In this document: one piece after another, positions 4,900 to 10,857 of the stretch
Layout: every line of letters begins with the position of its first letter
Numbering within the stretch: position 1 is the stretch's first letter
From: Actinomycetota bacterium
GTDB taxonomy: Bacteria; Actinomycetota; Acidimicrobiia; Acidimicrobiales; Aldehydirespiratoraceae
Assembly (NCBI GenBank): GCA_029979265.1
Contig: JAPOHW010000007.1
Span: forward strand, 57,211-121,210
Direction: 5' to 3'
DNA length: 64,000 nucleotides
Position numbers and translations under genes: made by a program
Notes under the pieces: generated by a model
The model's input: the letters and a program-made list of their open reading frames with translations, nothing else
The model's database searches: none
What the model was told of the DNA's origin: nothing

Positions 4900-5011
4900 C
4901 TGTAAACGTGGGGAGAATGTTCGATTCCAAAACAACACACACGCTGCCTTGGACACCGCCGAGTCTCGATCGGTTACGACCCGAGCTGCACCGAGTCACT
5001 ATCGTGCGGCG

Positions 5012-5908
5012 ATGGTGCTCGTTCTGGAATCAGCGACCCTCGACCGTTACGAGACCGACGGCTTCCTCCTTCTTCCGAGCCACATCGACGCCCAGTGGCT
5101 CGGTCGACTTCGTCAGGCCATGGATCGCCTCGTCGACGAGTCACGTACTGCCGAGCCCGGCGACCAACGCTTCGACACCGAGCCCGGTCACTGCGCAGAC
5201 CGGCCGCGCCTTCGACGAATCAACGCTCCGGTCGATCTCGACCCAACGTTTGCCGCCTTTGCGCTCGATGGACCTGCCACCGACCTCGCCGAGGCACTCC
5301 TCGGGCCGAACGTCCGCTTCCACCACTCCAAGCTCAACATCAAATGGTCCGACGGTGGAGAGGAGGTCAAGTGGCATCAGGACATCCAGTTCTGGCCCCA
5401 CACCGACTTCTCGCCGCTCACGATCGGCGTGTACCTCGATGATGTCCTCGACGACGACATCGGCCCGATGGGGGTCGTACCCGGCAGCCACACCGGCGAG
5501 TTGTACGACCTCCACCATCCCGACGGCTCATGGTCGGGTGCGCTTTCGGACGCCGACACCACCCGTGCTGCAGTCGATCGTGCCGTGTATCTGAAAGGAC
5601 CGGCGGGCAGCGTCACGGTGCACAACTGCTGTTGCGTGCACGGTTCGGCCCACAACCGGTCGGACCGCTCGCGCCCCCTTCTGCTCCAGACCTATTCGCG
5701 CGCCGACTCGTACCCCCTGCTGGGCGTGGGCACGAACGGCAAGGCGGGTCGGGGGGCACACCAACTGGTGCGGGGATCGGCGCCGGCAACACTCACCATC
5801 GAGGGCCGCACGATGCCAGCTGCCCCCGACTGGTACCACGGCTCGTATCAATCGATCTTTTCGGTCCAGCAGGCTGCATCGGACGGATCGGAAGCATCGA
5901 CCCGGTGA
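5012..5908 (+). CDS. Phytanoyl-CoA dioxygenase (PhyH) family protein
   Basis: Predicted Fe(II)/2-oxoglutarate-dependent oxygenase; the substrate is unknown. The metal triad is visible: H122 and D124 in KWHQDIQFW and the distal H210 in VHGSAHNRS. R221 is placed to bind 2-oxoglutarate, and GPMGVVPGSH is the usual PhyH turn. The start chosen is ATG at 5012 (298 aa). An in-frame ATG at 4949 would add 21 poorly structured residues. It is divergent from the desaturase and convergent with ychF (9-bp gap). Confidence 0.85.
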   Translation: MVLVLESATLDRYETDGFLLLPSHIDAQWLGRLRQAMDRLVDESRTAEPGDQRFDTEPGHCADRPRLRRINAPVDLDPTFAAFALDGPATDLAEALLGPNVRFHHSKLNIKWSDGGEEVKWHQDIQFWPHTDFSPLTIGVYLDDVLDDDIGPMGVVPGSHTGELYDLHHPDGSWSGALSDADTTRAAVDRAVYLKGPAGSVTVHNCCCVHGSAHNRSDRSRPLLLQTYSRADSYPLLGVGTNGKAGRGAHQLVRGSAPATLTIEGRTMPAAPDWYHGSYQSIFSVQQAASDGSEASTR

Positions 5909-5917
5909 TGTGCGTCG

Positions 5918-6991
5918 TCAGACGTTGAACCGGAACTCCATCACGTCACCGTCCTCGACGACGTAGTCCTTGCCTTCGGAGCGGACCTTCCCCGCCTCGC
6001 GAGCAGACGCCCACGACCCAGCCTCGATGAGCTCGTTCCACTGGATCGTCTCGGCCCGAATGAAGCCCCGTTGGAAGTCGGTGTGAATCACACCGGCCGC
6101 CTCAGGCGCCGTGGATCCGGCACGGAAGGTCCACGCCCGCGACTCTTTCTCACCGGTCGTGAGGTAAGTCCGCAGTCCGAGCATGTGGTACGCCGACGTC
6201 AGGAACGCAGGTACCGCACCGTCGCCAAGACCCAGCGCCTCAAGCATCTCCTGCCGGTCCTCCGGCGCCATCATCGCGGCTTCAGCCTCGAGCTGCACCG
6301 ACAGCGGCACCACTTCCGCACCGTCGAGTTCTGACCGAACCGGTGCAGCAATCGCATCTTCGTCGCCGATCTGATCCTCACCGATGTTGAGGACGGCCAT
6401 GACCGGCTTGTTGGTGAGGAAGAAGAATTCCTTGAGCTCAGCCCGCTCCTCGGCGTCGAGCCCCGCCCGGTAGAGCGGCGTGCCCTCTCCCAGCGTGTCG
6501 ACGCACCTCGTGAGGAGTTCGACGGTGCGCTTCAACGAACTGTCACCCTTGAGCATGCGCTGCATCTTGTCGCAGGCCTTCTCGGCACTGGCGAGATCAG
6601 CGAGCGCCAACTCGATCTCGACCACCCGCAGATGCTCCAGCGGATCCTGCGGACCAGGGACGTCTTCGTCCGGAAACGCGCGCAACACGAACACGATGGC
6701 GTCGACCTCGCGAATGTGGCTCAGGAAGGCGTTCCCGAGGCCCTCCCCCTGGCTGGCTCCCTCGACCAGCCCACCGATGTCGGTGAACTGCACCGCAGCA
6801 TGGATCGTCTCCTTGCTGCGCGACATCGCGCTGAGCTTCTCGAGGCGATGGTCGGGGACCTTGGCGACGCCGATGTTGGGATCGGTGGTGGCAAAGGCGT
6901 AGGGGGCGGCGTGAGCGCCGCCACCGGCGAGCGCGTTGTAGAGCGAGGACTTGCCCGCGTTGGGCAGACCGACAAAGCCGAAACGTTCCAT
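5918..6991 (-). CDS. ychF: Redox-regulated ATPase/GTPase YchF (OBG family)
   Basis: YchF is a ribosome- and stress-associated P-loop NTPase that prefers ATP. The 357-aa protein starts MERFGFVGLPNAGKSS (P-loop), followed by DIGGLVEGAS (switch II/G3), a coiled-coil arm, NIGEDQ in the G4 position and a C-terminal TGS domain with GVIHTDFQRGFIRAE and DGDVMEFRFNV. The C-terminal sequence is nearly identical to the family consensus. The start at 6991 was chosen over a longer open frame to 7147 because the P-loop must be near the N-terminus. Confidence 0.97.
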   Translation of the reverse strand: MERFGFVGLPNAGKSSLYNALAGGGAHAAPYAFATTDPNIGVAKVPDHRLEKLSAMSRSKETIHAAVQFTDIGGLVEGASQGEGLGNAFLSHIREVDAIVFVLRAFPDEDVPGPQDPLEHLRVVEIELALADLASAEKACDKMQRMLKGDSSLKRTVELLTRCVDTLGEGTPLYRAGLDAEERAELKEFFFLTNKPVMAVLNIGEDQIGDEDAIAAPVRSELDGAEVVPLSVQLEAEAAMMAPEDRQEMLEALGLGDGAVPAFLTSAYHMLGLRTYLTTGEKESRAWTFRAGSTAPEAAGVIHTDFQRGFIRAETIQWNELIEAGSWASAREAGKVRSEGKDYVVEDGDVMEFRFNV

Positions 6992-7485: not shown

Positions 7486-8079
7486 TCAGCCGGTGAGCGG
7501 TGCAACACCCGGCACGCTCGACGGACGGGAGAACACCTCGTCGAGCATCGGGCGAAAGTCTTCGATGTCCATGACCGGGTAGCGGGGATCGAAGCAGTTC
7601 TGGTCGTACTCGTGACAGAAGTCGACGCAGCGGTCGAAGTAGGGCGAGTCCCGATGCCGATCTCGAGCGTTGCGGTCACCGTCGTGATGGTGAAAGTAGT
7701 AGTAGCCCTGGAAGAGTCCGTGGTGCTTGACCACCCAGTGCGTCTCCGCATCGACGTAGGGTCGCAGCAGTGCCGCTGCCGCATCGGAATGGTTCTCGGG
7801 GGCGAATCCGTCGGCGATGTCGTGCAGCAGCGCTGCCACCACCATGTCGACCGACTCGTTGTTGCGGTAGGCCCGCGTCCCTGACTGAAGCGAGTGTGCA
7901 TAGCGATCGCACTGATAGCCGAGCGTCGGCCCCTTCAACAGACCAAGCAGGCCGACGAGGTTGTCGACCAGCGCACCACGAGCGTGCTGCTCGAACGCCA
8001 CCCCGAGGTGCGCGTACTCCTCGCGGGTGCCGTGCTGCATCTCGGTCCACGGGACCTGGAAGTCGGGATCGAGCGCCAT
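7486..8079 (-). CDS. HD-domain metal-dependent enzyme (phosphohydrolase or MIOX/PhnZ-like oxygenase)
   Basis: This 197-aa protein carries an HD-type metal site: H62 in RYAHSLQ, the H86-D87 pair in LLHDIAD, further histidines in ENHSD and KHHGLFQGYYY, and a late Asp in YDQNCFDPRYP. The size and the all-helical layout match both HD phosphohydrolases and the small HD-fold mixed-valent diiron oxygenases (myo-inositol oxygenase, PhnZ and TmpB types). The sequence alone does not decide between hydrolase and oxygenase. It is divergent from the epimerase gene. Confidence 0.7.
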   Translation of the reverse strand: MALDPDFQVPWTEMQHGTREEYAHLGVAFEQHARGALVDNLVGLLGLLKGPTLGYQCDRYAHSLQSGTRAYRNNESVDMVVAALLHDIADGFAPENHSDAAAALLRPYVDAETHWVVKHHGLFQGYYYFHHHDGDRNARDRHRDSPYFDRCVDFCHEYDQNCFDPRYPVMDIEDFRPMLDEVFSRPSSVPGVAPLTG

Positions 8080-8119: not shown

Positions 8120-8953
8120 ATGAATGACTCGCTCCCCCACGTCCTCATCGCCGGCGCCGGAGACGTCGGGCTCACCGTCGCCACGGCGCTGGTCGGGGCT
8201 GGGCTGCGGGTCTCGACCCTGAACCGTTCGGGCCGCCAAACCGACGGGGCCACGCCGATCGTCGGTGACCTGTCGAACCCAGCGACCCTCGGATCCGTCC
8301 CCGCCGCCGATGTCGTGATCTTCACCACTGCACCCCCGACCCGCGATGACATCGGCTACCGGATTGCCTACCTCGATGGCCCACAGGCCCTGCTCGACGC
8401 ACTGCCGCGCGACCCGGGGCGCGCCGTACTCACCTCGACCACCGGTGTGTACGGCGCCGACGACGGTCGCTGGATCACCGCAGCCGATGACGCTGCACCG
8501 ACCCGTTCGACGGCCGCTCTCGTCGTCGAAGGCGAAGGCAGGCTCGCAGCTCGAGTGCCGACCACCATCATTCGGTCGGCGGGCATCTATGGACCGGGCC
8601 GCCATCGCCTCATCGACCAGGTCCGCCATGGTGCCGTCGGCGTCACGCCGGGAACTCCCGCTCGGTGGACCAACCGCATTCATCGTGACGACCTTGCAGC
8701 TGCACTTGCACTGTGTGCTGTGCATCCGAGCCCTCCGGCGCTCGCCATCGCCGTCGACGGCGCCCCCACACCTCGCGACACCGTGTTGTGTTGGCTGGCC
8801 GACCAACTGGGCGTGGAACTGGGACCCGACCCTGATCCGCCCCGCCATCCCATGGGGAAGCGTTGTCGTAACAGCGAACTCCGCGACCTCGGCTGGGAGC
8901 CTGCCTACCCGAGTTACCGAGAGGGATACACCAGCGTGCTCGCTAGCCTGTGA
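8120..8953 (+). CDS. NAD(P)-dependent epimerase/dehydratase family protein
   Basis: An extended short-chain dehydrogenase of 277 aa. It has a Rossmann GAGDVG motif at residues 9-14 and a shortened fold. STTGVYGADDGRW is the catalytic Ser/Tyr region (Y at the YxxxK position but without a clear Lys). IRSAGIYGPGRH and NRIHRDDLAAAL are typical of YeeZ/SDR-a11-like epimerase-fold proteins. The substrate is unknown. The start is ATG at 8120. The bL37 gene follows 3 bases after its stop. Confidence 0.8.
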   Translation: MNDSLPHVLIAGAGDVGLTVATALVGAGLRVSTLNRSGRQTDGATPIVGDLSNPATLGSVPAADVVIFTTAPPTRDDIGYRIAYLDGPQALLDALPRDPGRAVLTSTTGVYGADDGRWITAADDAAPTRSTAALVVEGEGRLAARVPTTIIRSAGIYGPGRHRLIDQVRHGAVGVTPGTPARWTNRIHRDDLAAALALCAVHPSPPALAIAVDGAPTPRDTVLCWLADQLGVELGPDPDPPRHPMGKRCRNSELRDLGWEPAYPSYREGYTSVLASL

Positions 8954-8956
8954 GCC

Positions 8957-9046
8957 ATGTCGAAGCGCACCCAGAAGAAGAAGGCCAAGGTTCGCCGCAG
9001 CAAGGCCAACCACGGTCGCAAGCCCAATATGGGCCGCAACAGCTGA
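8957..9046 (+). CDS. 50S ribosomal protein bL37 (mini protein)
   Basis: A 29-residue, strongly basic ORF: starts MSKRTQKKK and continues RRSKANHGRKPN. bL37 was described as a tiny actinobacterial large-subunit protein in mycobacterial ribosome structures. From memory its C-terminal half reads ...KANHGKRPN, which this ORF matches closely. The gene has a clear ATG, begins 3 bases after the epimerase stop and is followed by a strong hairpin terminator at 9089-9114. It is a little longer than the mycobacterial version (about 24 aa) because of a GRNS tail. Confidence 0.75.
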   Translation: MSKRTQKKKAKVRRSKANHGRKPNMGRNS

Positions 9047-9088
9047 TCCTCTCCCGGGGCTCTCTGCGCCCGTCCATCATTGCTGACG

Positions 9089-9114
9089 ACGCCGCTGCGT
9101 GAACGTGGCGGCGT
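9089..9114 (+). terminator. Hairpin terminator after bL37
   Basis: An 11-bp stem (two G-U wobbles) closed by a TGAA loop, ACGCCGCTGCG-TGAA-CGTGGCGGCGT, with two further T residues after it. It lies between the + strand epimerase/bL37 unit and the convergent amidohydrolase gene, so it may stop transcription from both sides. Confidence 0.65.
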
Positions 9115-9144
9115 TTGCGCGTCACACCGGGCGCCTCGTGTTGA

Positions 9145-10857
9145 TCAGACCCGCACAACGCCGTGGTCGGTTGCCTTGAGTGTTCGACCCGGGCGCGCAT
9201 CGGTGATCTCGTCGTGGTCGACCACGATGACCCCGGCCTTCACGGTGGCCAGATAGCCCTGGGCCTCCTGAACGAGCCGACGACCACCGGCTGGGAGATC
9301 GTGAATCATGTGTGGCTTGCGCAACATGAGCCGTTCGTGATCGATCACGTTGACATCGGCGAGCATGCCGGGCGCAAGCACCCCACGGTCGTGCAGTCCG
9401 TAGACGCGCGCCGTGGCCTGGGTCTGCTTGTGCACCACCAACTCGATCGGCAGCTTCGGACCCCGTGAACGGTCGCGAGCCCAGTGGGTGAGCAAATAGG
9501 TGGGCATGGACGCGTCACAGATCAAGCCGCAGTGGGCGCCACCGTCACTCAACCCGAAGATCGAGGCCGGGTGTTCGATCATCGCCCGGATCGCTTCATG
9601 GTCCTGGTCGACATAACTCCCCAGCGGCATGAAGATCATCGCCGTGCCCTCTTCGGCGAGCATCCAGTCGTAGACGACCTCGTGGGGGGTTCGGCCCTCA
9701 CGCTCGGCGACCGCGGCGGCCGATGCCGACGGAGGCGGCTCGTAGTCCGTCGGCTCACCCAGCGGAAACATCTGCTGAAACGAGGTCGCCATGAAGCGAA
9801 CGAACGGATTCTTGCTGGCTGGCTCCTCGGCAAGGAGCTGCGAACGGAACCCGGCGTCGCGCATCCGGGCCACGATCTCGGCATGCGACTCGTGGGCGAT
9901 GGCCCGGAACGACGGATGCGCACGGAACGGATGCATGCTCGATTGGAGGCTGTAGAGCATGCCGGTAGGGCGGGCCGGGACCTGCGGGGCGATGGCGTGC
10001 CCGGCCTCGTTCGACGCCTGGTTGCGTTCGAGACAGGCCCGAAATCCGTCAGGTTCACGGGGCTCTTGCGCCATGGTGTAGGTGACAGGCACACCGACGT
10101 TGCCGAGATGGTCGAGCCACCGCCACTCGTCTTGTTGAAAGGTGTTGTCGCTCACGAACTGGAACAGACCACGACCCACGACGGCAAGTTCGTCGGCGAT
10201 TGCCATGAGCTCTTCGTCGAGAGCGAACGTTCCCGGTTCGAAGCCGTGCGAACTGGCATGCAACACCGTACGACTCGTCGAAACTCCGAGCGCTCCGTCA
10301 CGAACGCCGTTGGCCATCACGGCGGCAATCTGGGCGATCTCGGCGCCGGAGATGTCGTAGTCGTGGCAGCGGTCACCGAGCACGTAGGCGCGAACTGCAG
10401 CATGCGGGACCGTCGTCCCGAGATCGAGTGTTCGAGGACGTGAGGCCAACGCATCGATGTACTCGCCGAACGATTCCCAGCACCAGTCGATGCCCTCGTG
10501 CAACGCAGTGCCGGGGATGTCCTCGATCGCTTCCATGAGTTCGATCAGGAATGCTTCGCCGCCGGGGCGGACGGGCGCGAACCCGACCCCGCAGTTGCCC
10601 ATCACCGCCGTCGTGACACCGTGATCGATCGAGGGGCGCATCACCGAGTCCCAGGTCGCCTGACCGTCGTAGTGGGTGTGGACGTCGACCCAGCCAGGTG
10701 CCACCACCGCCCCGTCGGCATCGATCTCGCGTCGCCCCCGTCCGTCGACCGTTCCGACCTCGACGATGTGCTCGCCGTCGATCGCCACATCGGCGGTGAC
10801 CGGAGCTGCGCCGGTGCCATCGACGATGGTTCCGCCGCGGATCACGAGGTCATGCAT
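9145..10857 (-). CDS. N-acyl-D-amino-acid deacylase / D-aminoacylase-like amidohydrolase
   Basis: A zinc amidohydrolase of the COG3653 group that hydrolyses N-acyl-D-amino acids or related amides. The 570-aa protein begins with the composite beta-sandwich strand MHDLVIRGGTIVDGTG, then VDVHTHYDGQ (metal-binding HxH), MGNCGVG, and near the end LSDGGAHCG with the catalytic Asp region and a second beta-sandwich GMLADVNVID. Many actinobacteria carry several paralogues, so the true substrate is uncertain. The ATG at 10857 is preferred over an open upstream frame that lacks homology. It is divergent from the DCC-family gene. Confidence 0.88.
   Translation of the reverse strand: MHDLVIRGGTIVDGTGAAPVTADVAIDGEHIVEVGTVDGRGRREIDADGAVVAPGWVDVHTHYDGQATWDSVMRPSIDHGVTTAVMGNCGVGFAPVRPGGEAFLIELMEAIEDIPGTALHEGIDWCWESFGEYIDALASRPRTLDLGTTVPHAAVRAYVLGDRCHDYDISGAEIAQIAAVMANGVRDGALGVSTSRTVLHASSHGFEPGTFALDEELMAIADELAVVGRGLFQFVSDNTFQQDEWRWLDHLGNVGVPVTYTMAQEPREPDGFRACLERNQASNEAGHAIAPQVPARPTGMLYSLQSSMHPFRAHPSFRAIAHESHAEIVARMRDAGFRSQLLAEEPASKNPFVRFMATSFQQMFPLGEPTDYEPPPSASAAAVAEREGRTPHEVVYDWMLAEEGTAMIFMPLGSYVDQDHEAIRAMIEHPASIFGLSDGGAHCGLICDASMPTYLLTHWARDRSRGPKLPIELVVHKQTQATARVYGLHDRGVLAPGMLADVNVIDHERLMLRKPHMIHDLPAGGRRLVQEAQGYLATVKAGVIVVDHDEITDARPGRTLKATDHGVVRV

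Follow-up and report, generated by a model that had tools for sequence, protein, structure and literature searches.

Results

Features of the locus

The DNA analysed here, referred to as the window, is a stretch of 64,000 nucleotides from a genome of the order Acidimicrobiales. An open reading frame (ORF) of 90 nt, stop codon included, lies at positions 8957-9046 of its forward strand and is translated as MSKRTQKKKAKVRRSKANHGRKPNMGRNS. The following features were recorded at this locus and upstream of it.

5918-6991, minus strand: ychF, of a ribosome-associated ATPase family (TIGR00092, 362 bits, cut-off 279)
7486-8079, minus strand: HD-domain gene (Pfam PF01966), between ychF and the epimerase gene
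8120-8953, plus strand: NAD-dependent epimerase/dehydratase-like gene (Pfam PF01370), with its TGA stop codon at 8951-8953
8944-8949, plus strand: predicted -10 element TAGCCT with CGC before it (CGNTANNNT form), based on conserved position and a published motif
8957, plus strand: predicted start of transcription, on the A of the ATG or directly beside it, based on the spacing from the -10 element
8957-9046, plus strand: bL37 gene (29 amino acids, ATG to TGA), encoding a mini large-subunit ribosomal protein, based on the ORF, the NF047428.1 match, PDB matches and relatives
9089-9114, plus strand: 11-bp hairpin, a probable terminator with a weak T-tract, based on stem pairing across family loci

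Downstream, an amidohydrolase-like gene convergent with bL37 ends at position 9145. On the other side ychF is divergent from bL37 and, in the lineage of the window, is separated from it by the HD-domain and epimerase genes. An ectoine-hydroxylase-like gene was observed between rsmI and ychF at 4949-5908 on the plus strand (TIGR02408, 62 bits against a cut-off of 336.5). Across the whole window there was no match to Rfam, and no tRNAs were found.

Identification of the ORF as a bL37 gene

A preliminary description of this DNA had taken the short frame for the actinobacterial ribosomal protein bL37, and this identity was borne out by family, structure and core-motif comparisons. The only family that matched the window protein at E≤1 was NF047428.1 (NCBIfam, 50S ribosomal protein bL37), with a score of 26.3 bits; this falls below the curated cut-off of 30 of a model that is named for mycobacteria (ribo_Myco_bL37). 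When the single protein was used to search the PDB (phmmer, E≤10), bL37 chains were the sole matches (E 0.025 to 0.25), the weakness of even the best of these being expected since the protein has only 29 residues. A search with a home-made profile of relatives, A1, again returned bL37 chains as the sole matches at E≤0.1 (E 0.00083 to 0.024). Some of these chains were deposited unnamed or under other names; they include bL37 of Mycobacterium smegmatis, M. tuberculosis and Cutibacterium acnes. All 20 members of A1 matched NF047428 at E≤0.01, and orthologues in other genomes of the class exceeded the NCBI cut-off (for example G053, 31.6 bits; G313, 36.9 bits). The genes of these examples are divergent from ychF and within 70 nt of it (L066, L114). 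Searched at E≤10 against the complete 3.3-Mb assembly, the window protein matched only itself (E 3.4e-13).

The protein also has the traits by which bL37 is recognised, being short and basic with an ANHG[KR][KR]PN core (the mycobacterial form has 24 amino acids). It is collinear over residues 1-24 with the bL37 proteins of M. smegmatis and M. tuberculosis (PDB 5o60, 5xym and 7kgb; UniProt A0QTP4 for M. smegmatis), with which it has the SKANHG[KR][KR]PN core and a basic N-terminal part in common. Compared to the M. smegmatis protein it has one extra residue ahead of the core, while MGRNS replaces the terminal A. The best PDB match of profile A1 was C. acnes bL37 (PDB 8crx; PMC10085706), which has the ANHG[KR][KR]PN core but only 24 residues, without the GR tail of the 29-residue window protein. 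The assignment of this ORF as an orthologue of actinobacterial bL37 is therefore well supported by sequence comparison, despite the missed curated threshold; the gene is real, ordinary in kind and easily overlooked.

A basic peptide this small might instead act as a free, antimicrobial-like molecule away from the ribosome, and growth-inhibiting activity has been reported for C. acnes bL37, which inhibits some Gram-positive bacteria in disk assays according to PMC10085706. That same source, however, also models the C. acnes protein as part of the ribosome, no hydrophobic signal stretch was seen by eye in the window sequence, and the gene has a single match in its genome and lies near translation genes. 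A non-ribosomal peptide is accordingly a very improbable reading, and a ribosomal bL37 is the one followed here.

Conservation and distribution of the bL37 gene

Close relatives were the place where the preliminary description had expected its reading to fail if it were wrong, through absence of a conserved ORF. The gene was present there: among 41 genomes (the 40 nearest and the window's own), 36 gave a bL37 match at E 0.005 or better, three of the other five gave chance-level matches only (E 0.18 to 0.43) and two gave none. Twenty of the proteins were aligned without internal gaps, and 14 columns were invariant (M1, S2, K3, T5, R13, K16, A17, N18, H19, G20, P23, N24, G26 and R27). In eight near relatives (L002-L009) pS was 0.11 to 0.45 and pN 0 to 0.058, with substitutions mostly at third positions; over 21 family loci there were 133 synonymous and 119 nonsynonymous changes, for 17.7 and 69.3 sites, respectively. 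Judged by these substitutions, the pattern in near relatives is a purifying one.

These data also bear on whether the frame arose by chance, or runs antisense to or out of frame with a real gene. The ORF is short and basic, lies in high-G+C DNA and is overlapped by ORFs in other frames, all of which would fit such an origin. Set against this are the conservation of start, core and length in the class, the concentration of near-relative changes at third positions, and the finding of no frame-breaking change in the loci that were read, so that the likelihood of a spurious frame is next to nil.

For comparisons across loci, 116 were kept (80 from the same order, 22 from other orders of the class and 14 from elsewhere in the phylum). 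The class loci were chosen rather than random, consisting of all loci supplied and 40 fetched places; duplicates (L032-L034) were dropped, as were three loci that did not fit the extraction pattern (L097, L111 and L117). A further set of named loci comprised the best 80 of at least 249 confirmed, 12 of which were common to the first set. As the loci are related and partly shared, the counts given below do not represent independent events. The ANHG motif was present in 102/102 extracted class loci, the extraction pattern itself requiring [NS]HG, which 3 of the 105 class loci fetched did not fit.

Of 296 genomes sampled from the class, 184 had a match to profile A1 at E≤0.01, including 152 of the 210 best assemblies. 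The absence of an A1 match at this threshold from the other 112 genomes (58 of them among the best assemblies) implies that bL37 is dispensable or has diverged in some lineages. In the wider phylum an A1 match was found in at least 33 of 198 sampled genomes, a lower bound since the profile was tuned to the window's class. Among the matches listed, the closest named genomes were Acidimicrobiales, Acidimicrobiaceae and 'Candidatus Microthrix' MAGs, which points to Acidimicrobiia as the class of the window.

Gene callers commonly have a minimum length of about 90 nt. With an ORF of only 90 nt, both gene callers and the naming model would therefore tend to miss bL37. In the same 296 genomes NF047428 gave 135 matches at E≤0.05, of which only 33 exceeded its cut-off, compared to the 184 found with A1; these figures agree with the earlier expectation that the gene is probably omitted from most annotations.

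The C-terminal tail

In all 102 class loci that were read (105 fetched), the protein continued past the PN core with a tail of GR, or GK or SR, usually in the form GRNS, GRG, GRR, GRN or GR. A GR tail was also found in 80/80 named loci (the best 80 of at least 249) and in 9/14 loci outside the class. In contrast, the bL37 proteins of M. smegmatis and C. acnes end at PNA and lack it. The preliminary description was thus right that the GRNS end extends beyond the mycobacterial protein; it is the local version of a tail carried by all class loci read. Such a tail is accordingly general to bL37 in this part of the phylum, and its invariance suggests a fixed contact with rRNA.

A predicted -10 element at the start codon

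The sequence upstream of the bL37 gene reads CGC-TAGCCT (8941-8949), then GTGAGCC, then the ATG, so that the predicted -10 element ends 7 nt 5' of the start codon and overlaps the last epimerase codons. The first T of TAGCCT is 13 nt upstream of the ATG, in agreement with the TA-led mark of bacterial leaderless genes described by Zheng et al., a TANNNT situated some 12 nt before the start codon (PMC3160421). In the window, the bL37 ATG has no Shine-Dalgarno core in front of it, no -35 consensus was seen at the promoter, and a consensus promoter scan was negative.

The position of the element was conserved. A TANNNT hexamer with its end 5-10 nt upstream of the start codon was present in 73/80 same-order loci, compared to 0-3/80 in eight shifted windows, and in 72/80 of the named loci (the best 80 of at least 249), compared to 0-8/80 in seven shifted windows. 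When one locus was taken per anonymous family, the element was present in 22/26 (24/26 if 11 nt was allowed), against a background of 18/1113 windows (1.6%). The triplet SRN preceded 56 of the 73 hexamers of the first set; an SRN extension before the -10 has been described for M. tuberculosis promoters (PMC3898074). As a control, 146 candidate start codons of 41 frames in the window were examined and the signature was found at nine, which showed that it is no general property of start codons here.

Shine-Dalgarno cores showed the opposite distribution. In the same-order loci they were present in 5/7 loci without the -10 element and 4/73 with it; the corresponding figures for the named loci (the best 80 of at least 249) were 8/8 and 5/72. 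In other orders of the class, 8/22 loci had the -10 element and 13/22 a Shine-Dalgarno core, and in loci of the same phylum outside the class the counts were 2/14 and 9/14, respectively; outside the window's order the -10 signature is therefore in the minority. Four same-order loci from families f25 and f31 (L035, L036, L040 and L088) had a Shine-Dalgarno core and no -10 element at the bL37 ATG, an apparent switch, on the sequences compared, between leaderless and leadered initiation. Since the -10 element is kept at the ATG in 73/80 same-order loci, the bL37 gene is probably monocistronic and leaderless.

Neighbouring genes

The preliminary description had placed bL37 in one unit with the epimerase gene. 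The two genes are co-directional and abut (epimerase stop codon at 8951-8953, ATG at 8957), and transcriptional readthrough from upstream into bL37 is compatible with the sequence; bL37 might thus be the last gene of an epimerase operon, with translation coupled at the 3-nt junction. When the window's neighbours were searched for by tblastn, the epimerase gene abutted bL37 in 7/80 named loci (the best 80 of at least 249) and 10/102 other class loci, a total of 17/182. After removal of the 12 shared loci, this amounted to 12 of 170 distinct loci, all of them close relatives; the epimerase gene was not found there in the other 158, three of which had less than 300 nt of upstream sequence. The -10 element at the ATG, in contrast, was retained where the upstream gene was a divergent ychF or another gene. 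Coupling is further opposed by the missing Shine-Dalgarno core in the window and by a junction that is 2 nt longer in loci L004-L007, so that the frame relation differs. The proposed shared unit was consequently unsupported and an epimerase operon is unlikely; a separately transcribed bL37 gene remains the preferred reading. A fusion of the two products by stop-codon readthrough was also considered, as the epimerase TGA (8951-8953) shares its frame with the bL37 ATG in the window, but was rejected because of the longer junction in L004-L007.

Across the class, the usual neighbour of bL37 is ychF. Of the named loci (the best 80 of at least 249), 72/80 had it in the flanking sequence fetched, which reached up to 4 kb: in 33 it was divergent at no more than 300 nt, in 15 it lay downstream at no more than 400 nt, and in 24 it was more distant or arranged differently. 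Among the loci fetched with flanks of 1.5 kb, 24/102 had ychF divergent within 300 nt, and in 56/102 it was not found. A DCC-type gene followed bL37 within 650 nt in 17/80 named loci (again the best 80 of at least 249) and 14/102 other class loci.

In eight loci of a family outside the class (f66; L072-L074, L078-L080, L082 and L083), bL37 was divergent from a gene whose protein sequence, judged by eye, is probably rimP, with a probable nusA behind it in most and an ispG-like gene on the opposite side in several. This arrangement would be another translation-related neighbourhood of bL37. Two loci from MAGs titled 'Bifidobacterium breve' (L148 and L155) had a ychF-bL37 spacing like that of Actinomycetota MAGs (L149, L153 and L157); these two records are probably misnamed.

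The hairpin downstream of bL37

The hairpin at 9089-9114 consists of ACGCCGCTGCG-TGAA-CGTGGCGGCGT and has 11 pairs, two of them G-T; a 45-nt stretch starting with its stem gave a folding energy of -23.8 kcal/mol, a second small stem included. After the stem come only TTT and then GCG, and scanning 8800-9300 for consensus terminators gave no hit. Of the 22 family loci, 10 had a recognisable counterpart of this hairpin; the following counts are based on these ten, anchored on the right arm. Eight stem positions were paired in 10/10, one of these being G-C in eight loci and A-T in two, and two inner positions were paired in 9/10, one of them occurring in C-G and G-C forms. Other loci among the 30 that were folded had different or weak hairpins.

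What had been called a strong terminator is therefore a real 11-bp hairpin, conserved in near relatives, and the word strong is not borne out by its weak T-tract and the negative consensus scan. It is a probable transcription terminator. Because the next gene runs toward bL37, the hairpin could act for both and is possibly used by that gene too. A convergent gene alone does not account for it, however, since in L008 and L010 the gene that follows it is a DCC gene with the same orientation as bL37.

Linkage with the bS22 gene

The gene for bS22, the other mini ribosomal protein of Actinomycetota, was located on the same contig at 52107-52190 (1108-1191 of L124), some 5 kb before the window begins and 14 kb upstream of bL37. 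It is the sole COX24_C (PF08213) match in the genome, reads GSLIKKRRKRMRKKKHKKMLRRTRHQRK after a GTG start, has a TAGCGT ending 8 nt before the GTG, and is convergent with an ispE-like gene. Like bL37, bS22 is short and basic, with the same leaderless signature and often the same chromosomal neighbourhood; unlike bL37, it is a 30S protein near the decoding centre, and the sequences are unrelated. In the order, 84/89 genomes had bS22 at E≤0.01, 77 of them above the Pfam cut-off. Among 31 bS22 loci that were read (the window genome's own and the 30 best-scoring from the 84 genomes), the -10 signature was present in 27, compared to 0-2/31 in seven shifted windows.

Linkage was assessed in 41 of the 84 genomes with bS22, those in which both gene places were known; G027, with a chance-level bL37 match, was excluded. 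The two genes were on one contig in 29/41, a count biased toward near pairs because most assemblies are fragmented; bS22 was 5-25 kb upstream of bL37 in 28 and on the same strand in 26. Linkage was thus observed in 28/41 genomes and was clearly lacking in three. In one of these, G026, a single contig carries the genes at a distance of 1.5 Mb; the others (G218 and G317) have them on separate contigs, with more than 50 kb of contig upstream of bL37. G040 had no bS22 within 25 kb upstream of bL37, and in nine further genomes the genes were on different contigs and linkage could not be judged. Four genomes had both genes on one contig longer than 1 Mb; G030, G035 and G053 were linked and G026 was not.

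Between bS22 and bL37, the genome of the window has ispE-like, rsmA (ksgA), Rpf-like, tatD, metG (a partial frame), rmuC-like, rsmI and ychF genes, those called "-like" being below NCBIfam cut-offs; the gene content is known from this genome, and elsewhere from ychF only.

uL30 in genomes with and without bL37

In Borrelia, an N-terminal extension of uL30 fills the rRNA pocket of bL37 and works like it, according to PMC10618245; that extension is no separate gene, unlike bL37 of the window. In the window's genome the uL30 start codon lies 1-2 codons before the conserved domain, and there is no Borrelia-like extension. Seventeen genomes without a bL37 match were searched by tblastn; in 15 of them uL30 starts within 13 codons of the domain, with no long extension evident. 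A uL30 extension as a general replacement for bL37 was not seen among these 17 genomes.

In-frame basic stretches of about 15-24 residues were present before the uL30 domain in two of the four f39 genomes tested (G056 and G064). In L229 and L230 (f39, genomes of about 1.1 Mb without a bL37 match), basic in-frame stretches precede the usual uL30 start. By its sequence, the L229/L230 stretch could be a Borrelia-like extension standing in for bL37.

Discussion

We consider it highly probable that the ORF at 8957-9046 is a bL37 gene that forms an autonomous monocistronic unit, with its own promoter, a leaderless mRNA and a hairpin-ended transcript. With a -10 element just 5' of the ATG, the mRNA most likely has its 5' end on the start codon or directly beside it, and it would be translated without a leader or a Shine-Dalgarno sequence, and the hairpin, about 40 nt past the stop codon, would end the transcript. 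The product, 29 residues long and very basic, is expected to bind the ribosome, where it would fill and stabilise a pocket of 50S rRNA near the peptidyl transferase centre. By homology with Mycobacterium and Cutibacterium, this pocket would comprise H39-H42, H72, H89 and the tip of 5S rRNA. The protein was described as actinobacterial from M. smegmatis cryo-EM (PMC5876184), and the authors of PMC6133939 regarded its precise role as an open question.

In Acidimicrobiia, bS22 and bL37 may be viewed as a dispersed pair, each expressed as a leaderless mRNA from its own promoter with a -10 element at the start codon; in most genomes that allow a judgement, the two bracket a stretch of 5-25 kb. Ribosomes carrying both proteins could then favour the leaderless mRNAs that encode them. 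The linkage and the -10 signatures were observed, but such feedback through leaderless translation of the bS22 and bL37 mRNAs is speculation, and we think this reading as a whole quite improbable.

In the literature searched, no paper was found on this arrangement of bL37 with ychF, bS22 and leaderless expression in Acidimicrobiia, which does not prove absence from print. The kind of protein was already known; what the present analysis adds is the promoter signature at the ATG, a corrected operon assignment and the frequent linkage with bS22.

According to these results, bL37 occurs in the Acidimicrobiia part of the phylum in a form whose C-terminus is longer, and the NCBI naming model misses most of these proteins. 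As bL37 genes have, almost exclusively, one or the other of a -10 element at the ATG and a Shine-Dalgarno core, they offer a compact case for studying moves between leaderless and leadered initiation. Tiny genes such as this one could be found through a promoter element at the start codon, together with a neighbourhood held in common with ychF and often with bS22.
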